NCBI GenBank assembly: GCA_003707065.3
Contig: PPXM03000005.1
Coordinates: 186,001-250,000, forward strand
DNA length: 64,000 nucleotides
From: Trigonopsis variabilis
Taxonomy: Eukaryota > Ascomycota > Trigonopsidomycetes > Trigonopsidales > Trigonopsidaceae
Direction: 5' to 3'
Shown: positions 2,628 through 58,000 of the stretch, piece by piece
How the letters are laid out: the number at the start of each line of letters is the position of its first letter
Numbering within the stretch: the stretch's first letter is position 1
Position numbers and translations under genes: made by a program
Notes under the pieces: generated by a model
Databases searched by the model: none
The model's input: the letters and a program-made list of their open reading frames with translations, nothing else
What the model was told of the DNA's origin: nothing

Positions 2628-4438
2628 AAAGCTAATATCAGCATTAGGTAATTAGAAAAACTGTCGCCCCTCTCGGTACCATCCCGGACCTAAAATATTT
2701 TGGAAGGAGACTTTTCAAATCTCATGCCTTCAACGAGGCTGTATTAGTTACGTTACACTTATTTGTCAAGGGGATATGTATTTCTGATGGTCTTTTATCT
2801 GTACTTTGAGACTACTGGTATGGCTAACACCTACGTTGCCAGTGTCCAAGACCATTCGTGGAAAAGTTGGACGTTTTCTTTTCTATCCACCCCAATTGAC
2901 TGTTTGCATTCTTGGTACCTTACCAGTCACCTTCTTCAACCGCATTCTTTTTCTCTCGACATCTTTACTGACTTTATGTGCTTAATATTCTTTCTCTCCT
3001 TGACACAATAATTTGAAGGGCAGTGAATCGGATTATTTGACAAGTATGCAAAATTAGCTCGACGTAAGCTCTCCTTCATTGTAAAAAGAAAAAGTAGATG
3101 GCTTGGGATGTGATCCTCCATCTTCAACTCGGAAGATTGGGTAACCCAAGTTAACTCGGTCAATTTCCTAAGGTATGAATCGCACCGCTTGGAGATGTCT
3201 TTGCTCCATTTACTTCATGATGATACTCTAAACGAGTCTAATCTCCTTCAAAACAAAACTATGTTCTATAAAATTTAATTTTGGTTTAGCTATCAAACAA
3301 CATTAAAGAACATTTAGCGCTTCGCTGTTCCATAAGGCATCTCGCACTAGGGTGAAACCTTCGATCCGACTGGGCGTTGCGACACAAGTTACATATTACG
3401 ATTCACCCAAAATTGATGGAGCTCCTCATTTCTCTTTTAGACGCCTTGGCCTCAAGACAACCAAGTCTAATTAGGACAGTACGAATACTGAAGTGACACT
3501 GAGGGGATTTATTATCTTATATGGAGACTCACGCTTTGCTAGTTTTTCGTACGTCCTAAAGTGTCTGGACATTAGTTTCTATGATGGTCTGCTAAAGCCG
3601 AGAGAAGATTGCTTCGATTCAACAGCTCGAATTGATAGAGATGTTTTTGTGTTTCATGCAATAATTCCTGCGCAGAAAAGCAAGCGATTGAAATAATCTT
3701 TGAACATTTTTATCACATGCATAAAGATCTCTTCCTCACTATATCGAAATTCTCCGTGGTTGCGAATAAGGAAGGCTTTGTTCACCTCTCGTTTGACCTT
3801 TTTCGACAAGAGCTCTGAATTGAGAAGCCTTTTCTCGAATTTCTGAAAGTAGGTGCTGTATTGGATATGTACACGCGGTTCATCGATTGTTCCTGGAACT
3901 GTTACGACTTTACGGAGTAAAACTTGGCAGACCACCGAGTGACCGCATCCCCCTGTGGCCAGAGAGCAGCAGAGGGTACCATTTCATCTTCCTTAACTCT
4001 TGCTTTTACGGAGTTCTCTTTGTTTTTTTGAATAATTACTGATATTCATTCACGGCTACGTTTTCTTATACCAACTTACACTCTTGGTGCTATATTTCTC
4101 GATCCTGAGAGAAGAGAGATTTGAGTTCTTTGACACTAGCTTTTTGCTGAAGCGTCTTCTAGCGTGATGAAGTTCAATATGGGCAGGAAAATACAAATAC
4201 CGATTACTGCATCTTTGTTTCTCCGTAATCAAATTTAGGACCTTTGGTTCATCTTTGTGGCACAGATATCCCTTAACTGTGGGCATGCTTTTCTCGTGAA
4301 GGATTCACTTTCTTCTCGTTTTCTCATTTTTCTAGAAGATGCCAATGCAGGCGTTTTGCTCATCTGTTTAAGGCGTAGCGCATATATAACCCAGAGGGCT
4401 TCAACTGTTGTCCCTACCTTCTTTCTGAGACCCCAAAG
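2628..4438. other. 1.8-kb stretch without a supported gene
   Basis: AT-rich sequence between CK1 and the orphan ORF. Only short frames occur. The best is on the minus strand at 3654-3935 (93 codons, charged, non-repetitive), which might be an exon of a lineage-specific gene: a CCACAG acceptor-like site lies just upstream on that strand. No family is recognisable and no donor could be fixed, so it is not listed as a gene. Confidence 0.4.
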
Positions 4439-5662
4439 ATGACTTTCAGAACTCATCTTGATGCTCTCAAACACGCTTTAAAAAGCAAAAAAGATCGGCT
4501 TGTCAAAACAGTCAAGTCCTTTCTCAAGAGATCGGAGCCTCAAAATTGTTCTGACCTCGCCATGCCCTCGGAGACCATGGCCGCCGGCAAGACTGTGAAC
4601 CCGAATGACAATATAGGGGAACAAAACAAGTCAGAGCGGCCCAAGGTCTCCCTCAGGCCACCGACAGCTCCTTTGCTGTCCCAGTCCATGCGGAACAGGA
4701 CTCTTGTCAAATACCTGTTATCGCTGGACTTTTTCAAGACCTACCGACTGCCTCACCTAGCTTTCGACTTGGACGGTTGCGATGAATCTTCTCTGGAGCC
4801 GTTTTATCACGAAATTGAGCAGAGATCTGCCGAGCTGCAAGTCTTCCTTTGCAGACAGTCTCATGCTCAAAGGACTACTTGCGACTTGTCGCAATTATTC
4901 CAGTGCCCAGAGACGGAAATCGGGCATCCGTCCAGTCATCCTAGGACCCCTCATTCCTTGCACCCCATGTGGGAGATGGAGGAACCAAACAAGGCGTCTC
5001 CTGCAGAGGCACAAAATCTTGCTTCTGTCGGTAAGGCAGCCTTTGGTCCCCAAGAAGAGGTTGCGAGAGTAGGGTTGCCTAAAGAGGTGGACGTGGTTTT
5101 GACGGGCAAAGCTGTCGGTGGCCTGCTGCCTCCCAATCACTTGTCACAGACACATCTTGAGCCTCCCAAAGCTGAAGCTGATGGCTCTGTGACGACGAAG
5201 CAACAAGTGCTCCCTGCAAAGGTATCAAACGAGACAGACCTGAAAGTTCAAGTGGCCCAGTATGAGAACAGCAAGGATGAGCTCACCTCACTTTCTCAGC
5301 CAGCCAGTCATTGTGGGCAATCTCTTGTGAAGGCGTATTGTTTTCAGTTCCATACTGAAAACAATACGCCTTATTCTCAAACGATTTGCCATCAAGATGC
5401 GAGTGACCTCAAAGAATGCCAGAACACTGATCGCATTTGTCCCTCTGAGGCTAGGCGGATCAAATCCTGCCAATCGATAGGATCAGATCCGCCTAGCCTC
5501 AGGAGGACTAAACAGAGTGCTCCTGAACACAAGCAAAATCAATCTCTGAGACTTATAAAAAAATTTAAAAAAAGAACTTTATTAAACCCAACCGAAGCGA
5601 GCTTTCTCAAACAGCGGCTCCCAAAATGGCCAACGCTGACAAGACGGCCACGCTGGCGCTAA
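4439..5662 (+). CDS. Orphan 407-aa ORF with internal perfect hairpins
   Basis: A single open frame from ATG 4439 to the stop at 5660-5662. The first ~35 residues are basic and look helical (Lys/Arg/Leu pattern). A hydrophobic-aromatic patch follows near residues 84-115 (KYLLSLDFFKTYRLPHLAFD), then a Ser/Pro/Gln-rich region that is probably disordered, then a very basic end. No known domain is recognised. Two perfect inverted repeats (5330-5372 and 5445-5502) lie inside the C-terminal third and are translated. The length of the open frame supports a gene, but absence of any known family leaves open a young, fast-evolving or decayed gene. Confidence 0.5.
   Translation: MTFRTHLDALKHALKSKKDRLVKTVKSFLKRSEPQNCSDLAMPSETMAAGKTVNPNDNIGEQNKSERPKVSLRPPTAPLLSQSMRNRTLVKYLLSLDFFKTYRLPHLAFDLDGCDESSLEPFYHEIEQRSAELQVFLCRQSHAQRTTCDLSQLFQCPETEIGHPSSHPRTPHSLHPMWEMEEPNKASPAEAQNLASVGKAAFGPQEEVARVGLPKEVDVVLTGKAVGGLLPPNHLSQTHLEPPKAEADGSVTTKQQVLPAKVSNETDLKVQVAQYENSKDELTSLSQPASHCGQSLVKAYCFQFHTENNTPYSQTICHQDASDLKECQNTDRICPSEARRIKSCQSIGSDPPSLRRTKQSAPEHKQNQSLRLIKKFKKRTLLNPTEASFLKQRLPKWPTLTRRPRWR
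5330..5372. repeat. Perfect 18-bp inverted repeat, 7-nt loop
   Basis: The arm AAGGCGTATTGTTTTCAG at 5330-5347 is exactly complementary to 5355-5372, separated by TTCCATA. It lies within the orphan ORF and would form a strong hairpin in DNA or RNA. Confidence 0.95.
5445..5502. repeat. Perfect 17-bp inverted repeat with nested inner repeat
   Basis: The arm CTGAGGCTAGGCGGATC at 5445-5461 is exactly complementary to 5486-5502. The 24-nt spacer itself carries ATCCT and AGGAT as a smaller inverted pair, so the hairpin can be extended inward. Confidence 0.95.
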
Positions 5663-32142: not shown

Positions 32143-32174
32143 GAGACTCTTGTTGGGTGAGACTCTTGTTGGGT
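32143..32174. repeat. 16-bp tandem duplication (2 copies)
   Basis: GAGACTCTTGTTGGGT is repeated exactly, head-to-tail, just past the 3' end of the orphan ORF on the minus strand. Confidence 0.9.
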
Positions 32175-32242: not shown

Positions 32243-32884
32243 TCAGATAAATCTGAGCCATATTTGCGGCGATAATTTGCTCCTGATGGCGCTCTTTATT
32301 CCTTTCAGTTTCTTATAAAGAAATTGAAGGGAATAAAGAGCAATCATCCAGCAATTTTTCGTAGCTGGCTCTTGCTCAGCAGAAAGATCTCCATGTTTCA
32401 ATTCTGGGAAAGGAATTGGATCCCAATCCCTTTTCCAGAGTTGGTCATCGCCGTCGTAGTCTTGGTAGGTTTCTTTCTTTGCTTGGGCAAAGCTCACCCA
32501 TTTCATGATTTCAATCTCAGCTTCAGTCAAGTATATAGGTTCCACATGTTTCAAGCATGTGGAACCAATATACTTGCCCAAAGCAGGAATAATTGATTCC
32601 GGTTCCGTCCAAACTCTTCCAGCACCAGGCCTGACGAATCGATCCATGTTCCTCTTGAAAACCGGGGTTTTCTCAGGCGATTTGATGGCCGTCTCGCACT
32701 CGACTTTCTCTGGTAGGTCCACAAAAGGGATATTAATATAAGTTTGAAAAACTTCGTCTATTTTCTCTCTTCGTTCCCTCCAGGCATCCCAGTACATAGC
32801 TGGATCATCTTGGAGAGATGAATGATCCTCATGTTTTGCAAGAGCGTAATCTTTGATGATGGAGCAGTCGACAATAGAACTCAT
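32243..32884 (-). CDS. Orphan 213-aa ORF built over multiple hairpins
   Basis: A single open frame from ATG 32884 to the stop at 32243. The product starts MSSIVDCSIIKDYALAKHED, is rich in Glu, Lys and Trp (YWDAWRERREKIDEVF, DQLWKRDWDPIPFPELKHGD) and has a hydrophobic stretch, WMIALYSLQFLYKKL, near the C-terminus. No family is recognised. At least five inverted repeats lie within it, three of them with arms of 21-23 bp (32292-32340, 32399-32443, 32528-32576). It may be a fast-evolving lineage-specific gene or a non-genic region that happens to be open. The charged, non-repetitive composition favours a protein. Confidence 0.45.
   Translation of the reverse strand: MSSIVDCSIIKDYALAKHEDHSSLQDDPAMYWDAWRERREKIDEVFQTYINIPFVDLPEKVECETAIKSPEKTPVFKRNMDRFVRPGAGRVWTEPESIIPALGKYIGSTCLKHVEPIYLTEAEIEIMKWVSFAQAKKETYQDYDGDDQLWKRDWDPIPFPELKHGDLSAEQEPATKNCWMIALYSLQFLYKKLKGIKSAIRSKLSPQIWLRFI
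32292..32340. repeat. Near-perfect 23-bp inverted repeat, 3-nt loop
   Basis: Arms 32292-32314 and 32318-32340 pair at 21 of 23 positions; both exceptions would be G-U pairs in plus-strand RNA. Loop ATA. Confidence 0.93.
32399..32443. repeat. Near-perfect 21-bp inverted repeat, 3-nt loop
   Basis: Arms 32399-32419 and 32423-32443 pair at 18 of 21 positions around the loop ATC. The sequence is unrelated to the neighbouring hairpins. Confidence 0.92.
32528..32576. repeat. Near-perfect 21-bp inverted repeat, 7-nt loop
   Basis: Arms 32528-32548 and 32556-32576 pair at 20 of 21 positions around TTTCAAG. Confidence 0.93.
32657..32672. repeat. Short inverted repeat, 7-bp arms
   Basis: GAAAACC (32657-32663) and GGTTTTC (32666-32672) separated by GG. 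A further pair, GGATCAT (32802-32808) and ATGATCC (32822-32828), lies nearer the ORF start. Confidence 0.85.
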
Positions 32885-34080
32885 TGAGATTGTAGAAGAA
32901 CCTGTGATGCGTCTTCTGCATTACCTATTCTTTATATACCATTCTCGCCTTGGTTTAAAAGGCTTTCTCAGGCCGACTAAGGCGAGAAGTAATGAGGCGG
33001 TAATCTTATCTGGTATACGCCTTCAACCTATTATCAGTGTACTTTCTTTCATGTGTGAGAGGCCCATTTATGACGATCTAAATCCTCGATATGGCTATCG
33101 TCTGAATTCAGCTCTCGCCAATGGCTGGTATCGTTCAGAATGTGAGGCCCTGCTGCGGAGGTTTTCCCTCTATTGATATATCAGTTCACGTTTCCCTATC
33201 GGCACATGATTTACCATTTCATAGCCAGAGGCGATGCTGGTCATTCAAGGCTCTAGGTATCTGATATCCAGCCTTTCTGCCAGACTGCCTTAAGCACTTT
33301 GACAGGTGGCCTTGACGCTTACAGCGCCTCTGCTCGTGGTTTATACTTGATCTTGCTATATGGTTTGCAGAATGCTTCATTTATACCTATTAAAGGTAAT
33401 GGCAGGTGAGCGAAAACAGCGGTGAATGGGGTTAAATCGCCACTCAATTTTGTCACGTGGAGGGAGCCTTGCCTGTCCCCTAAAAAGCTGTTTGGTTTTG
33501 GATACACACTGGCGTGTAAGGAGTGGTGGATCCATCACCTATAGCATGCACTAACTTAACGGCTGGGCGCCGTTGGACCACAATTACGGAAATGGAAATT
33601 TAGCGTCCAGTCTATTCCCAAATAGGAATTGGGGACAAAGAGACTGGACTAGGGTGCGACTTACAAAGACAGATTGACTGATTCTTGTAAAAGATATGAT
33701 ACAGTCAATCGAGACGTGGACGTAAATATAAGATCTCGGACACAGAATGACGCTCTGGCCATTATCAGCTTTTCGCCATCTCTTCAGCGCAGCCCACGTG
33801 ACCTGGTATTGGGGCAGCACAATGAGCTAGCACGCAGGCTCAGGCAAAGGGACAGAATGACAAGGAAACATTTGGATCGTCGGGCATGGTCTAATCCCAT
33901 ATGTCATTGTGCTTATGCTCAGACAAAACTCACAGAGCATTCGGTCCCACTTCATGCGACAATGCGCTAGCGAGCAATGTCGCAAGCGAGTATCAGATAG
34001 TTGGCTGCGGCTTCTCCCGATAAGGATGACACCGGGCCTAACGTCTCGAGACTCGACTGGCTTGGTTATTAACAGAGAAC
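32885..34080. other. 1.2-kb intergenic region rich in inverted repeats
   Basis: No convincing gene. Inverted pairs: TTCTCGCCTT 32942-32951 with 32979-32988; GTCCAGTCT 33605-33613 with 33641-33649 (enclosing CCCAA/TTGGG); GATTGACTG 33672-33680 with 33702-33710, interleaved with TTACAA/TTGTAA; GCGACA 33956-33961 with 33978-33983. The right end is the promoter and leader of the G-alpha gene, and TTAACAG just before its ATG looks like a 3' splice site. Confidence 0.6.
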
Positions 34081-41598: not shown

Positions 41599-42276
41599 AT
41601 GGGTCTATTGACCATCATTAAAAAGCAGCGCTTAAAAGAGCGAGAAATTCGTATCTTGATCCTGTGAGCTGTCCTAGGACGTTTCCTGCTAACATCTTTA
41701 GCGGTCTCGACGGAGCAGGCAAGTCATCAATTGTCCAGGCTCTGCGAGGAAAGAACCTCGGCAAAGTGGCGCCCACGGTGGGCTTTAATATCAAGACAAT
41801 TGAGTTCAAAGGGTAAGCTCAAGATATGGTTGTCAGCTGCTGAGACATAGGTACAAATTGAATCTCTGTAAGCCGGTTTCGATGGCGCCGTCTGACTAGC
41901 AGGGGATATAGGAGGCCAGTCGTCTCTGCGGCCGTTCTGGCGCAACTACTTTGAGAAGACTGACGCCATTATCTGGGTGATTGATATTGGAGACCTTGCG
42001 AGGCTGGGCGACATCAAGGTGGAGCTCGACAAGATCTTGCTCGAAGACAGGCTGATTGGAGCAGACGTGTTGATCTTTGCAAACAAGGCAGATACGCTAC
42101 CCGCAGAGATCGTCAAACCGACGCTCGATTCGATTACGCAGCAGCTCGATTTGGGCCGGTTCCCCAACCACAACTCGACTGTGATGGCATGCAGCGCTTA
42201 CACCGGTGAAAATATCAAAGAAGGCCTATCGTGGATTGTACAAAACGTGCGCCAACGTCTTCATCTATATAACTAA
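41599..42276 (+). CDS. ARL2: ARF-like GTPase ARL2 (Cin4/Alp41)
   Basis: Exons 41599-41663, 41702-41812, 41851-41867 and 41903-42276 (introns 38, 38 and 35 nt) give 188 aa. The start MGLLTIIKKQRLKEREIRIL is diagnostic of ARL2 and has Gly2. The P-loop is GLDGAGKSS, switch I PTVGFNIKTIEF, switch II W-DIGGQSSLRPFWRNYFEKTD, and the base-recognition loop FANKAD. Exon 3 is only 17 nt and encodes YKLNL. ARL2 regulates tubulin folding cofactors. Its stop lies 67 bp from that of the convergent DIP2-like gene. Confidence 0.94.
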
Positions 42277-42343
42277 ACCCATTTCCCAACCATGCTCGCC
42301 ATTGTCCTCCATGAAACTTATGCTCCTATGCTGTCCTTTCATC

Positions 42344-45300
42344 CTAAATCTGAAACCCTTCAATATCTCCGTTCCTCACCGTTAATGTCCTCTGCTGTTC
42401 CTCTGGCTCTTCTTGCAGAGACGCCAGAATCATCGAGTTCCTCAATGCCGAATATTCATTCATGCTCCACGCTCGAGCCTGCTCCTCCTCCTTCACCCGG
42501 AACTGGTCAGCCAGATCTCCGTCTTCAAACCGAATCTCGTCGTACAACTGTTCCTCTTCGTACGACGTGTCGCCCTTGGGCGTCGCCACGGCCAGACCAG
42601 GACCTCCCGGCGATGCGTCGTACGACGACGCGGAAAACGTCTCTGAAGCCCGACGCTGGTGGTCTTTGAACGATATTGACGACCGCTCGCTGCGAATATA
42701 GCTTGACGGCCGGTCGGGGAGTACTGTCGACCGTGGTCGCTGAAGCTTTGCGCTTGACACCGAATTGGCCTTTGAGTGGGTCAGACTCACCGAATACTCA
42801 CTGCCGTCGCCAATGGTGAACTGAGCTAGCGTGTTCAGTTTCCGGGAAACCCACAAGGACACCACGCGGGCGCGCTGTTTTTCGCCCAGCCGAGAATGGG
42901 GCAGGTCGCCCTTGGCCACAAAACACACGATATCCAGAATGGTCTGGTGCTCGTTCAACACGGCGTCGACAATCACTGGGACCAAGGACGAGAGATAGGA
43001 CTTGCGGCTGACCTCCACCACAGCAACAACCAGCCCTGCTGCCTGGAAGACGACCGAGCCTTTGTTGCAGATGCACGAGTGGCAGTGCTCGATCGAGTAT
43101 TCAAGATCGAGCGGGAAATGATTCAGACCGGCGACCTCAAAGGTGTCGCCAATGTGTCCCAACACGTACACCAGCTGAATGTCCATCTCGGCTCCTCCAG
43201 GCCCAATTGGCTCGGCTTTGGTGTATAGGAAGCCCAGGTCTCCCGTCCGGCAGTAGGTCAAGTTGCTCTCGACTTCGAGAATCTGCGCGTTGAATCGTAG
43301 CTGATCAAGATCGTCCATGGGCCCATAGAACGAATGGGAGTTGGCTTCCGAGGCAATCCAGATCTCTCCAATCTCTCCTTCGTCGCACAGCCGGCGGCTC
43401 TCGGGGTTGACGACTGCCACTTGGCTGCAAGCAGGTACCAGCCCGCTGTCCTGCAGACGCAGTCCTTCCTTGAATCGGTCCTGGGGCAGAGTCACCACCA
43501 AGCCCTGTCGCAATAAATGGCGGTCCAGGTAGATTTCCGTTGGATCCAGGTACATGTAGGATCGGGTGGAAATCATGGGATTGAACGATGATGAGTAAAA
43601 GGCACTGATGGCCATGGGATCGAGGCCATACGGTCGAAAGTACTGCCGCAGTCGATGGACGACATCACAGTTGACCCGCCCCTCAAACGTGAGCATCATG
43701 TTTTGTAGCTCGTCGAGACGGAGTCCCTTGGCGTCCTTTGGCAAATGCACCATGGCGTGTTCCATCATCTGCGGAGTCGTGTACACGTCCTTGATCTTGT
43801 ATCGAGAAAGCGCCATAAAAAACAAGATTGGGTTCGTAGCAAAGTCCACCGGCGAGAGAAGATAGGTGGAACAGCCAGTGTAAACGCCCAAGAGGCAAGT
43901 ATGCAGAAAACCCATTCCCATGGTGCTTCGAACACAGGCCAGGATGGGCTTGTTTGGCTGGAGACGGCACGTCTCGTGCTGGATCTTACACAGCGCCAGC
44001 ATGCTCAGCCGAGTCAGAGGAATGGCGACCCGCCGGTGGTCAGCACTGTAGTACGACCACACGACCTGGACCTGGTTGGCAGCATACGTCTTTGGATACA
44101 GATCACTCTCGCGACACGATCCAGACGACTTCAGCGACTTTGTGGTATTGATCATGGGCGGAATAGGAATGTGACTGAGATGAGAACACTGCTTGAGGTA
44201 GCTGTGCATGGCCTTGCTCTTGAGCGCGTTCTCAGTGTCTCCATTCACCAAGATCGTCTTGACTTTGAAGTCCTTTACCGCGTTCAGCAGTGCTGGAACG
44301 TCCTCGTTCAACCGGTTCGCGTCCAGCGGCGCCACAGGGATAAGAACCACCTGAAGGAACAGGCATGCAAAAACAGCCAGCACAAAGTCCTCTGAATGCG
44401 TGTAGATCAGGATGGCATGGTCGCCAGCGGACAGGCGGGCCTTGTTCTTGAGCAGCTGCACGGTGGATGCGATCTTTTGGTCAAACTTTCTCCACGACAT
44501 TCCTTTGCCTTCCTTGCCGCGGCCGTCAATGGTGCAAAGTGCAAGTTCCTCGGGATGGCGAGTCACGCGGAACTTCAAGATCTCGAGAATCGACGGCATC
44601 TCACACAGGTCGATCTTCAACCGCGCATCGATCACACAGTCACGAGGCTCGACGCCAGAGTACTGCTTTTCCCCTCGAAATAGTAGCGCTTCGTGGATTT
44701 TCGCGTTCGTCTCTGACCATATGCCGCCATCGGGGTCTGGTCCCAACGGGATGTTCATCACCGCGCGACTCACGCCAAACTTGACGATAACACTGGGGAT
44801 CGACCCCATGGTGAACTTGCGCCGACACAGCATATTCCCGATTTCAGACCGCCCGTTTCGTTTGACCCGCGGAAGAGCGTTGGGGGCAGTCACCATCACA
44901 CAGTAGACACGGACCTTGTGCACCTTGAAGAGCACGTCGATGCACTTCTGGGCCATCCTCTCCAAAAAGTCAGTGTCGATCTGAACCGGCGGCCCGCCTG
45001 GCTGGACTGGACTCGAGTCTGCAAGCACGGTTTCCATGATGATAATGGGGAGATACTCGTCGTTGACGTAGATGTCAAACGTCGCACAGTCGAAGATCCG
45101 CGGGATATTCCGCATTATAGTCTGCACGAGATGCGACGTATAGTAGTATCGGTACTCTGTCTCGCCCTCAAACTGTCCAGAGATCGACAGGTCGTCGTCT
45201 TCACTGAACCGCTGCCGCAGCCGGTCCTCGTAAAAGCCAAGAACATAGACTTTGCCGTCAAAAGTGAATCCCAAGAGCCCCGTTCGCAGAAAATCAATGT

Positions 45301-50665: not shown

Positions 50666-53417
50666 TCAGTCAAGCCCCGTCTCGGTATCAGATCCGTCGT
50701 CAGGAAGCGATATGGGCGGCTCTTTCAGCGCCTGGTCGATGGCTGGAGGACTTGTAATCAGCCGTATCCGGCGCTCGAGCATCGTCTCTTCCAGCTGCGA
50801 GTGCTCAAACGGCGTAAAGTGGTGCTCGTACTGGGCTGTAAACGGTAGCAAGAGCAGCTCTTTGGACCAGGGGCATTCCCTGATGCCTTGATACAAGACA
50901 GCCTTGGCTTTTAGCACTTGATTATTAGCAAACTCGACCCCAATACTCTTTATCCACAGAGCAACGCAGTATCTGCCTTTGCCGGTATTGAGTGCTCTGT
51001 CCAACAGATTGCGATACACAGCCTTGTTGGGTTCGTGGTCAAGGACAAAGAGCATCGCAGGCAGACTCGAGCGAGGATTGTCGACCACGATATCGGAGGC
51101 CACCTGGCGGAAGAAGCTCTGCCATGCCTCTTTCTGCTGGCATTTGTATGCAAAAGCCAGCAAAGACACCGAATAAGGGAAGCGCTCGACGGCCTGCTTA
51201 ATGAGCTCAGCGATAGGCGCAATCCTGTACATCTGGCAGTGATCCAAATGATCAAATATAAGATCCATGTACCCAATGTAGATCTGTTCGCGGCCGTATT
51301 CGTCGAGTTCAGCGAGATATCTGGCCTCCAGGAGTTCCAACGAGTCCAGCATGACCGTTTGGCGACCTTCTGCGCTGGACTCAGCCAAGTAGTCGTAGGT
51401 CATACACACAAGACTCGCTATAAATACGTTGTACCACTTTTTGGAGGCTCGAGCTTCAGACAGGCAGTAGATCCGGCGCTAGCGTTAGAAAGGAATAGAC
51501 GATACTTACAGCACGGGGCTCCATTTTTGCGAGAGAAGACGACGAGTACAGGTCTGCTAGCTGCGTTAAAGACCACGACTTGAATAAACGGAGCGATTCA
51601 AGGCCCAAACGGCTGATTTCAGTGACGTTTTCCGGCGACGCTCGTTCGACGCTGCGAAATGATTGATAAAACCAATTCAGGTCATTCTTGGACAAGAGAA
51701 GCTGAATTATTTCCTGGCGGTTGACAGACTCGAGCCATTGGATCAGAGCAAACTTGAGATCTTCATCTTGAAGTTCAGGGTATACTTGTCGTATGAAATT
51801 GACTACAAAATCCTGGCGCGCTATAGGCAGGGCACGATGTTCCAGAGGCAGAAACGAGCTGCTGGTGATTTTCGAGCGATACTGATCCAAGGGAACACCT
51901 AAAAGGTAAAAACAGACCCAAACGAGCCTGTCCACGACACACGAGCTAGACAGTGCATGAAGAAAGGGGCGCAGATCATCGAAAATGATAGAGTTGTAGG
52001 GATCGTCGGGATGGTAGTGGATTGGGTGGACGGGAAGAGCATTCAGGGTCAAACGTAGCTCGTTATCTCCCCACGATTCGAGATTTGAAGAAATCTTTAC
52101 ATCATCAGACTGGTCAATCGCGGCTGGAGACGTATTCTTCCATCCCACGGCTTGATCTTCGCCGAGGCGAGGCGCCTCCATATCCCAGAACTGCTGCAAA
52201 CTACTAAGATAACGCTCCTCCTGCCTGCTTTCGATGGCAAAGGGACAGAAAACGTTCAATTCCAGAGCCGCCTGAACAAGAGCCAGGCAGAATTCGGTAT
52301 ATCCAGCCTGCAAGAGGAAGGTTCCCGTTGTCAGAAAAATTTCTGGGTATACCGACTCGAGATCGGAGCTTTTCCTCAAGATAAACGACTTTAGTCGCTC
52401 CACGACACCAGAGATCATGTTGAGCTTATCAAAGACGTCGAAATTCAGCGCATCGCCCAGTGACACCGCGAGGTTAGCAATCCACAGGTTCGGGTTATCA
52501 GGGCACTTGTTGAGGATTTCGTTCCACATTTCCGAGCGCTTCGATTGCGGTATGACCTTTATCGAGTACTCGGCATACAGCAGAGTCAGTTTTTCGTTGG
52601 TCGGGTTGGCAAGCCACGCTTTGGTGCATATCGACCGGATGATTTCATTTTTCTGATGCTCGGGCACCGTATGCGGGATAACTTTGGACTGAATGTTGAT
52701 CAGGGCAAGCCATGCCGGTTCGTTGTGGGGATCCGTGGTCAAGAGACCGTTCAGCCTGTTGGCCTCGAGCTGGTCTGGACTGAGCTCGACCTTTATGTCG
52801 GAGAAATCAACTCCCACGTTGTCTTTTTGTTCTGCACTCGGCTCCAGAGGCGGTTCGAGAGGAATGTAGTCTGTCAACTCGCCCGCATCGTCAGCCTTAT
52901 GGACTCTCTGGGGATTAGGCTCCACCGTAAACGCAATTCGCGGGCGCACTTCTTGACTTGTATCGCGCAGAAGAATACACTGATCGACTTTGGGGCCGAA
53001 ATCAATTCTCAGCCGGTCGTCCAGACCCAGAACGCGGCCTGATCCAGACACGAAATGGGCAGGAACCTGGTACTTGAACGTCTCATTGTACAAGAGATTG
53101 CCCTGATCGCCCTTTGGATCGATGTAAAACAGCGAATTGCGCTCGGGTGTATCTGACGACTCCCGTTGATGACCTCTGCGAGCTATACTGTCGCTAGAAG
53201 CGGGGCGAGAACCTTTGTCAGACACTTCCACGCGCGTCCTTTTGTGTCGTTCGTCTCTTCTGTGCTCTCTATGACCACTGTCGTCTTTCCTTCGATGCCT
53301 CGACCTGCTGGTCTTCTCCTGCTCCCTGTCCTCCTCCCGACGCTCACGCTCATCATGTTTCGACGAGGCCTTTCCCGGAAAGCTCTTGAAGCTTGTAAAC
53401 TTTGGAAAGCTGGCCAT
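50666..53417 (-). CDS. NRDE2/Nrl1 family nuclear RNA surveillance protein
   Basis: Exons 51510-53417 and 50666-51478 give 906 aa; the 31-nt intron is the shortest here. A basic Arg/Asp/Glu-rich N-terminus (~100 residues) precedes the conserved FYIDPKGDQGNLLYNETFKY block, then long arrays of HAT/TPR-like helices (ANRLNGLLTTDPHNEPAWLA, NLWIANLAVSLGD). The second exon continues the helical array (YDYLAESS, ELLEARYLAELDEYGREQIY). NRDE2/Nrl1 works with the MTR4/exosome and splicing machinery. It shares an 81-bp divergent promoter with DML1. Confidence 0.9.
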
Positions 53418-55022: not shown

Positions 55023-55097
55023 ACATTGTATATAACTACGTCACGTTGCCTAAATACCGCGTACCTTCCTATCATACATATGCACATGCTTTTACTT

Positions 55098-58000
55098 CTA
55101 TCTCCTCCGCGATCGGGGAACCGCGTACTTGCGCCCGGCAACCGGCGTCGAGACTCCACTTGCAAACAGATTCGACGCAGGAGCACCCTGGGGAGTCGGC
55201 GTCATGCCCACTCCGGGCGACGGGCTGGCGGTTCCAGATCCAAAACCGAAGGCAGGCGCCGGGTTAGATGCGCCCCCGTTCATTCCTCCGTTTGCAGCGC
55301 CCCCAAACTGGAAGCTTCCGCCGCTGTTGAAATTGAATCCTGGGTTTTGGCTCGGTTGGCTCTGGCTCTGGCCAAAGCCAAAGCCCACGCTCGAAGACGG
55401 GCCATTGCTCTGGCCTTGGCCAAACGTGAATCCAGTGGTGGTTGTGCTGCTGTTGCCAAACGCAAACCCACTGCTGGAGGAAGCAGGAGCAGGCGAGCTC
55501 GACCCTGAAAACGCAAAGGGCGATTTCGTGCCGTTGACTTCATTCTGCGAGGGTTGCGAAGGTTGAGAGCTTCCAAAACTAAAAGACGGCGCGGTCCCTT
55601 GGGCGCTCGTTGCAGTGCTGTCTGCCGTCTTGCCAAACGCAAAAGTCGATCCAGACGCAGCGCCAAACAGCGGTTTCTTTTGTGCCGGACCTTCGTCAGC
55701 TGCAGGAGCACCAAAAACGCTTCCAGCCGAGCCATTCGCAGGAGCAGAACCAAACGAAAAGGTCGATTTTGGGGCTTCAGGCTGGGCCTGGCCAAAAGCA
55801 GGCTTGGACGCTTCAGGCTGGACCTGGCTCGTGCTCGAGAGCTGTCCAAAAGCCGGCTTGGACGGCTCAGACGACTTGGGTTGTCCGCCAAAAGCAAATG
55901 ACGAAGTCTGCCCGCCGCCAAAGGAGAATGAGGGCTTCTCGTCAGTCTTGCCTGTGGACGCGCCAAACGAGATCGCAGGCCCAGTTTCGAGTTTCTTTGG
56001 CTCTGTACTGGCGCCAAACAGACTGGGAGGCTTTTCGGGATTGTCAGCCGTGGCGGCTGCTCCAAACGCAAACACGGGTTTCTCTGTCTTGTTTTCGCTC
56101 GTTGACCCGAAAGCGAACGCTGGTTTGGCGTCCTTCTTCTCGGTTGACCCGAAAGCGAACGCTGGTTTGGCGTCCTTCTTCTCGGTTGACCCGAAAGCGA
56201 ACGCTGGTTTGTCGTCCTTCTTCTCGGTTGTTCCAAACGAGAATGCTGGCTTGTCTTCTTTCTTCTCGGTTGTTCCAAACGAGAATGCTGGCTTGTCGTC
56301 CTTCTTTTCGGGACTTGGTGCAAACAAGGAAGGCTTTTCGTCCTTCTTCTCGACCGCTCCAAACGAGAACGCGGGGGCTTCGTTCTTTTTCTCAGCTTGG
56401 GTACTGTCCGAGAAAGCTGGTTTGGGCTCCTTATTCTCAGACGTTGCGCCGAAACTAAATGACGGTTTATCCTCCTTCTTTTCTGCCGTGGCAGTTCCAA
56501 GCGAAAATGTCGGCTGCTGGGATAGATTGGTCGACGTACCAAACGAAAAGGCTGGTTTCTGTTCTGTTTGACCAAAAGAGAAGGACGGCTTTGCAGCGTT
56601 ATCGCTTGCAGCCCCAAAAGATAACGGTTTGGACTCAGATGGAGCTCCAAACGAGAAAGCAGGCTTCTGCTCTGGAAGAGCGGCCTTTGCATCTGGTTCA
56701 GGGGCCTTTTCGGGTTCCTTGGTTGGCTCAGAGGGTTTAGAAAAGGCAAAGCTGGCGGGAGCGCCTTTGGAGGGCTCCTGGGAGCCAGAGGAGCCGAAAC
56801 TGATGGTTTTAGAGGAATCAGTAGAGCCAAAGGGAGCGGGGTTCTCTGCTGCCGGTCCGCCAGCTCCTGCAGAGGCTGTAGTTCCGAATTTGAACGTTGA
56901 CTCGGCGGTGGCTGGCGTAGGATTGAAGGCAAACGTCGGTTTGGACTCTGCTGGAGCGCTCTGTTCAGTGGCTTTGGCGCCAAACGAGAATTGAGGCGTG
57001 GGCTGAGTGGCTCCTGAGCCGCCAAAGAGCGTAGACGCGCTTTCATTGTTGATTTTCAGGGTATCCGTGGCAGACGCAGCCGCCGAGAAGCCAAACAAGC
57101 TCTTGGCTGGTTTATTGTCGTCCTCTTTCTGCGCAGTCGAGTCTGCTTTTGCAAACGAAAACGGCTGCTGGGAAGAGTCGCTCGAGACGGGCAGTTTCAA
57201 GTTGAAGCCGGCACTAGGAGGAATTGGAGCGTCTGCAGAGTCGCTAATGGCACTTGGTCGATGAAGTTGGCCAGGTTTTGCTTTGGCACTGGCGTCTTCA
57301 GGATGTTTCAGAATGCCACGGATTTCGGGCTTGGACGCGACGCCATCGCCACCAGACGAGACGGCAGGGTGTTCAGACACCCGCGCTTTCTTGGTCTGGG
57401 CTGTTTCTTCAGGGGGTGACGTGTCGTCGTCGTCGTCGTAGTCGCTGATGTTGGCATTGAAGAAGCCGGGTCGCCTGGATCGGTCAAACGGGATATCAGA
57501 CAGTTGCAGCGGCCGCTTGCGTTTCATACGCGCAATGGGAGTCGTGTATCGGGGAATCCTGCCCGTTTGGGTGTGGGAGTTCTTGTCTTTGAGAGATGCG
57601 GTGGCAAGGTCTAGAATTTGCTTGTCAGTGAGCCCGCTATCATTTTTCCTGGGCTTGCGCCAGACCATCTTTTTCGCAGGGCGGTAGGAAGGATGGCTCG
57701 ACAGCCCGTTGGAGATCTCGATCCCCCGCGCAGCGAGATCGAGCTGGTCGTCCTTGAGGGTCGTGGGTTCTGGCGCCCGCTCGAGCCCAGGCCCAGCGTC
57801 AGCATTCGCCTGTGTGTTTGAAGATGGAGCGTGTTCGAGTTGGGGGATGTCGGGGCTGGTGGACGGGGGTCTTGAAGGAGGAGCCTGCGGAAGGGTCTTG
57901 GACGGTTTTCGGCGGTGACTCTGGCTCGGTCGACCTGACGAATCGAAAAAGCGCTTGAATTCTTCCTGGCGTCTAAGCACCTCGCGGTACGCGTTGATAA

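Follow-up and report, generated by a model that had tools for sequence, protein, structure and literature searches.

The window analysed here, a stretch of 64 kb in full, reads as fungal nuclear DNA. Its genes with Pfam families include a protein kinase, coatomer gamma, UDP-glucose dehydrogenase, eIF4E, G-alpha, NAPRTase, ribosomal protein S5/S2, SDA1, a Mug62/DIP2-like AMP-binding protein, NRDE-2 and Vhr1. The PDB entries nearest to the ribosomal S2 protein are 7olc and 7r81, which we take to be the Chaetomium and Neurospora ribosomes. The NRDE-2 family gene lies at 51459–53417, and Pfam describes the family as 'necessary for RNA interference'.

Two open reading frames of this window, orfA and orfB, carry groups of long hairpins (Table 1). 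The original prediction had placed three hairpins in a frame of unknown function, and orfA agrees with this description: it matches no Pfam family at E = 1 or below, and its only two matches in the PDB (E 1 and 1.4) are regarded as noise. For orfB, no Pfam family was found up to E = 0.01. Relatives were sought in viral_contigs for both ORFs and in genome_contigs for orfA; the pattern matches obtained were in no case confirmed by tblastn. The structure predicted for orfA without an alignment is uninformative (mean pLDDT of 39). Kinship between the two proteins was considered and rejected (E 0.65). The absence of a known domain does not by itself set orfA and orfB apart, since among the 30 ORFs of the window that begin with ATG and reach 150 aa, five others are without a Pfam family up to E = 0.001 (ORFs 28722, 36881, 46442, 50666 and 62872). 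Two of these, 36881 and 46442, share part of their length with known genes on the opposite strand. ORF 5832 has a single Pfam match, to phosducin, with E 0.0093.

Table 1. Position of the hairpin-bearing ORFs, their hairpins and the promoter-like elements upstream (window coordinates)
Feature	Coordinates	Strand	Description
orfA	32243–32884	−	213 aa, no known family; hairpins A, B and C in 3′ half
orfB	4439–5662	+	407 aa, no known family; hairpins D and E near 3′ end
Hairpin A	32291–32341		arms 32291–32314/32318–32341, 22/24 paired, loop 3
Hairpin B	32399–32443		arms 32399–32419/32423–32443, 18/21 paired, loop 3
Hairpin C	32528–32576		arms 32528–32548/32556–32576, 20/21 paired, loop 7; weaker extension to 32520–32584
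Hairpin D	5330–5372		arms 5330–5348/5354–5372, 19/19 paired (perfect), loop 5
Hairpin E	5445–5502		arms 5445–5468/5479–5502, 22/24 paired, loop 10; gapped extension to 5436–5512
Promoter-like AAGGCG-N7-TATATAA of orfA	32932–32951	−	AAGGCG at −67, TATATAA at −54 from ATG
Promoter-like AAGGCG-N7-TATATAA of orfB	4370–4389	+	AAGGCG at −69, TATATAA at −56 from ATG
Three AAGGCG sites upstream of orfA	32942–33023		32946 (−), 32979 (+), 33018 (−)

Three near-perfect hairpins had been predicted within 32292–32576, and all three are present, with arms of 24, 21 and 21 bp (23, 21 and 21 had been noted) and loops of 3, 3 and 7 nt. Their centres at 32316, 32421 and 32552 are separated by 105 and 131 nt, in agreement with the earlier estimate of about 105 and 130 bp. 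The arms of A, B and C were described as mutually unrelated, and they indeed have no long sequence in common; the longest match of an arm elsewhere in the window is 12–14 nt. Two smaller hairpins up to 32828 were also part of the prediction. Both exist (32657–32672 and 32802–32828, with 7-bp arms), but they are at background level; besides A–C, orfA contains two hairpins scoring at least 14, compared to about 1.5 expected. A 10-mer, CATGTTTCAA, occurs beside B at 32392–32401 and again at 32545–32554, across the loop of C. The spacing of hairpins within the clusters (105, 131 and about 123 nt) could be read as regular, and we make no claim on these three values alone. Spliced introns were considered as an explanation of the hairpins; by eye, no GT..AG pair bracketing A or B was seen. 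Such a pair can be read by eye around C, yet the frame is open across A, B and C.

Hairpins D and E form a second cluster that was absent from the original prediction and is situated in another orphan ORF. In the predicted fold of E, one lone pair closes AATC. Hairpins A and D have a short similar stretch near their loops, with a direct local score of 26, the top of the ten hairpin pairs; the remaining nine pairs score at most 18.

A gapped hairpin scan gives scores of 41 for E, 38 for each of A, C and D, and 27 for B, and the top score in seven first-order Markov-shuffled copies of the window is 26. A–E all rank among the six best hairpins of the window, B being tied with a hairpin at 42–97 (score 27), and the scan of the window gave no hairpin scoring at least 28 outside orfA and orfB. 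Hairpins A–C are genuine and beyond chance, B being notable mainly for its location. The five are near-perfect local reverse-complement repeats with a short spacer, in excess of chance, and B alone is marginal in this respect. When five hairpins are placed uniformly in 64 kb, three and two of them fall each within 236 nt with P 2.5e-6 (2,000,000 simulations); this test was set up post hoc, with the data already in view, and leaves out hairpin 42–97. The latter has the same score as B, is imperfect (21-nt arms, 14-nt loop) and lies at the left window edge, where, judged by eye, a possible stop codon (60–62) of a frame open from that edge falls within it.

Folding energies were calculated for the same regions, as had been proposed with the prediction. 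Region 32292–32576 (+) has a folding energy of −115.1 kcal/mol compared to −61.6 kcal/mol (sd 4.2) for dinucleotide shuffles, which corresponds to z −12.7, and none of the 200 shuffles is as good. On the mRNA strand, 32285–32584 gives z −10.4 with dinucleotide shuffles as the reference and −4.4 with synonymous-codon shuffles (0/100 each), whereas the fold of the 5′ part of orfA (32585–32884) equals that of its shuffles (z −0.05). The outcome named in the prediction as refuting it, a folding energy no lower than in dinucleotide-shuffled controls, was thus not observed. In the orfB cluster, as in the orfA cluster, none of 100 synonymous shuffles is as stable as the native sequence. A folding scan of the window (240-nt tiles on both strands, 638 tiles, 30 shuffles each) places its eight lowest z-scores (−4.8 to −7.7) exclusively on the orfA cluster and on 5201–5640. 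The first 600 nt of orfB (4439–5038) are also more stable than shuffles, with z −3.9 in one 300-nt piece and −4.8 in the other, and contain weaker hairpins at 4683–4730 and 4837–4882; coarser tiling gives z −3.1 for 4801–5040 (+).

Over the whole ORF, the codon score in the own frame is +0.070 bits/codon for orfA and +0.015 bits/codon for orfB, compared to −0.05 to −0.20 for the five alternative frames. For comparison, eIF4E and G-alpha score +0.17 and +0.19, both being part of the training set, and NIPSNAP, which is outside it, scores +0.02. The coding signal of orfA is weak or negative at 32255–32434, and that of orfB is negative over most of 5429–5653. At 32300–32434 and 5294–5428, one antisense frame outscores the own frame, which is expected if part of the stretch is an inverted copy.

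The mismatches between the arms are informative with respect to translation. All six arm mismatches of orfA are synonymous when read as downstream-arm changes from a perfect copy of the upstream arm. The chance of this is 1.1e-4 to 1e-3 for transition weights of 1 to 8, and about double when the choice of arm is counted. Copying the upstream arms of A, B and C onto the downstream arms leads to no amino acid change, whereas copying in the opposite direction leads to four. If a synonymous change in either arm is allowed to explain each orfA mismatch, the chance is 0.0016 to 0.0064 for weights of 1 to 4. The pattern in orfA is compatible with mismatches that arose after a perfectly paired state. 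In hairpin E, two adjacent mismatches fall on codon 342, and the fully paired codon would be a stop. A perfect ancestral state of E would require a stop codon if the upstream arm changed, or an S-to-F difference if the downstream arm changed. With the orfA mismatches synonymous and E mispaired at a would-be stop, both ORFs seem to have been translated and constrained since the arms arose.

As to which arm served as the source, the synonymous pattern in orfA favours the upstream arm. The arm-wise codon scores (6–8 codons per arm) are higher for the downstream arm in A, B, C and D and for the upstream arm in E, and they argue against an upstream source, opposite to the synonymous pattern. The arms are in codon-aligned register in three of the five hairpins, no more than chance (P 0.26).

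Comparing the regions upstream of orfA and orfB, we identified post hoc a promoter-like module, AAGGCG-N7-TATATAA, at similar distances from the two start codons (Table 1). The exact module has two copies in 64 kb, those of orfA and orfB alone. Allowing up to two mismatches gives three matches compared to 0.7 in shuffles, and 3 of 100 shuffles reach three. TATAWA occurs within 120 nt upstream of 3 of the 30 ORFs that begin with ATG and reach 150 aa, including orfA (−54) and orfB (−56). The similarity of the orfA/orfB upstream pair has a Markov-shuffle P of 0.0012, and the pair is tied first with one other among 435 pairs. By itself, AAGGCG shows no enrichment across the window (34 sites compared to 33.4 expected). 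The three sites upstream of orfA span 72 nt, the tightest trio among the 34 (P 0.021), and the first two of them are inside an inverted repeat, 32942–32954/32976–32988. AAGGCG is also the outer end of hairpin D. TATATAA is found 26 nt before a 125-aa ORF (42266–42667) and 51 nt before a 142-aa ORF (55029–55506), in both cases without the AAGGCG spacing, and both ORFs are antisense to known genes. They contain hairpins of background strength at 42555–42628 (score 25, 125-aa ORF) and 55369–55422 (score 22, 142-aa ORF). The module is suggestive of a common regulation of orfA and orfB.

The original prediction had offered template switching during replication as a cause of the hairpins. This explanation stands in so far as the unique arms, tiny loops, near-perfect pairing and synonymous drift in orfA are concerned; that two genes sharing a promoter-like module were hit is left unexplained by a uniform mutational process. 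On balance, we think it probable that repeated in-frame short inverted copying by template switching has hit two protein-coding genes and that the arms have been kept as coding sequence. A replicating strand would briefly take the just-made strand (or its sister) as template and then return, leaving a reverse-complement copy of 19–24 bp a few nucleotides away and in frame. Since then, the arms in orfA would have acquired only differences that synonymous changes in the downstream arm can account for. We infer, as for the copying mechanism itself, that genes of this class become a hot spot through strong TATA-driven, possibly inducible transcription. Hairpins in the mRNA would mainly be a by-product; they may well affect the mRNA nevertheless, through ribosome pausing or through RNase III or Dicer cutting.

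Template switching is described as able to create a hairpin in one step (PMC8794818), and it is reported to alter coding genes in yeast (PMC8604942). The hairpins of orfA and orfB resemble the template-switch mutations as presented in these reports and in PMC7954356: a local reverse-complement copy, a short spacer, a near-perfect stem, later mismatches and, for yeast, a location in coding genes. They differ from the published yeast cases in the length of their arms, which is 19–24 bp here, with none above 16 bp listed in Table 1 of PMC8604942, and from template-switch cases as described in such reports in that there are two or three per gene, in two genes with a common promoter-like module. 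In a yeast assay, quasi-palindrome events are reported to have been observed only under high transcription (PMC3820800), and a strong promoter could thus make both genes hot spots. FEN1/rad27 mutants carry small inverted triplications that are likewise products of local inverted copying, which the authors tie to Okazaki-fragment ends (PMC13334657); as given there, the units of these triplications average 148/160/148 bp with a spacer of 30 bp, unlike the single 19–24 bp copies found here. Template-switch events are reported as depleted in human protein-coding regions (PMC7954356). It speaks against template switching that non-coding DNA should tolerate such events better, yet in this window hairpins scoring at least 28 are confined to orfA and orfB. 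The low coding score of orfB and the weak coding signal in part of orfA also count against the reading as a whole. RIP-type mutation was considered for the mismatches and rejected: none of the six transition mismatches, read as C to T, has A next.

An explanation that gives the RNA itself a role, as the original prediction had also offered, would have the orfA and orfB mRNAs act as co-regulated small-RNA precursors, with each 19–24 bp stem cut by Dicer to one duplex and the ORF being either a passenger or also translated. The two or three stems per transcript, the promoter-like module common to both genes and the synonymous shuffles, none of 100 being as stable in either cluster, all fit such precursors. 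In their stem and loop dimensions, the hairpins of orfA and orfB are similar to the confirmed fungal hairpin small RNAs of PMC9757828, described there as short hairpins whose terminal loop is small or missing; as in the mi/milRNAs of that report, the stem is about as long as a small RNA and the loop very small. The same source regards loci in coding sequence as doubtful, and here the stems are in ORFs, with orfA apparently constrained. Unlike the mi/milRNAs described there, the stems lie inside a constrained-looking frame and show no sign of constraint on mRNA pairing. Furthermore, the mismatches track the protein rather than pairing. Of eight arm mismatches in total, six are of transition type, and these give one G-U and five A-C oppositions on the mRNA strand and the reverse on the antisense strand. 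We see no sign of selection for mRNA pairing in these six, and six cases decide nothing. The arms have no long target match in the window, though 64 kb is little. In four of the five stems the antisense strand gives the more stable structure, which speaks against a precursor in the mRNA; an antisense precursor would be untouched by the mRNA-strand points, and antisense RNA as the functional strand is a possibility. Taken together, we consider small-RNA precursors unlikely. Quite improbable, in our judgement, is a composite in which the AAGGCG and TATA gene class would encode a lineage-specific protein together with two or three diced shRNA-like stems, born in frame by template switching.

The stems could alternatively be control elements of the mRNA, that is RNase III sites or structures in the 3′ coding part that slow translation or direct localisation. 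The confinement of strong structure to the hairpin part of orfA would agree with this, as would the wide variety of RNase III signals reported for yeast RNAs (PMC4334505). The loops of 3, 3, 7, 5 and 10 nt are not the NGNN tetraloops of that report, and AATC in E is not NGNN either. Together with the lack of any sign of selection for mRNA pairing and of an Rfam family at gathering score, this makes control elements a poor prospect. The Rfam scan of the window at this score gave no match, and a tRNA scan of the window gave no gene. An origin from older imperfect palindromes, perfected by repeated homogenisation of their arms (quasi-palindrome correction) rather than created in one step, appears about as doubtful, if not slightly more so. 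For yeast genes, PMC8604942 reports template switching in this form, and weak outward extensions of the stems are seen (P 0.02 for A; P 0.09 for C, D and E; none for B). These extensions are barely above chance at most, and a fair palindrome would be required to begin with. Several hairpins per locus and loops short enough for fold-back artefacts might also suggest insertions of a mobile hairpin element or an artefact of assembly or amplification. Dispersed hairpin or MITE-like elements would have an arm sequence common to their copies; here the arms are mutually unrelated and no long match to them occurs elsewhere in the window, so that they do not represent copies of a single element. Open frames, and substitutions between arms that in orfA are all synonymous in the downstream arms, would hardly be expected from an artefact. 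We therefore regard an element or artefact as very improbable.

The pattern is real and unusual, and a known mutational process that acted repeatedly on two genes of one promoter class is its most likely cause. Template switching is already known as a source of multi-base mutations and new hairpins. If it is the correct explanation here, five long inverted copies in two unrelated genes sharing a promoter-like module would point to gene-specific, perhaps transcription-linked hot spots, and peptide segments would have been gained by antisense copying and then retained. A full-text literature search, outside which most subscription journals lie, gave no arrays of hairpins in co-regulated fungal coding genes among the matches listed, which is weak evidence of absence. 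Just downstream of orfA, at 32143–32174, the 16-mer GAGACTCTTGTTGGGT is present as an exact tandem duplication, a sign of another local copying event.
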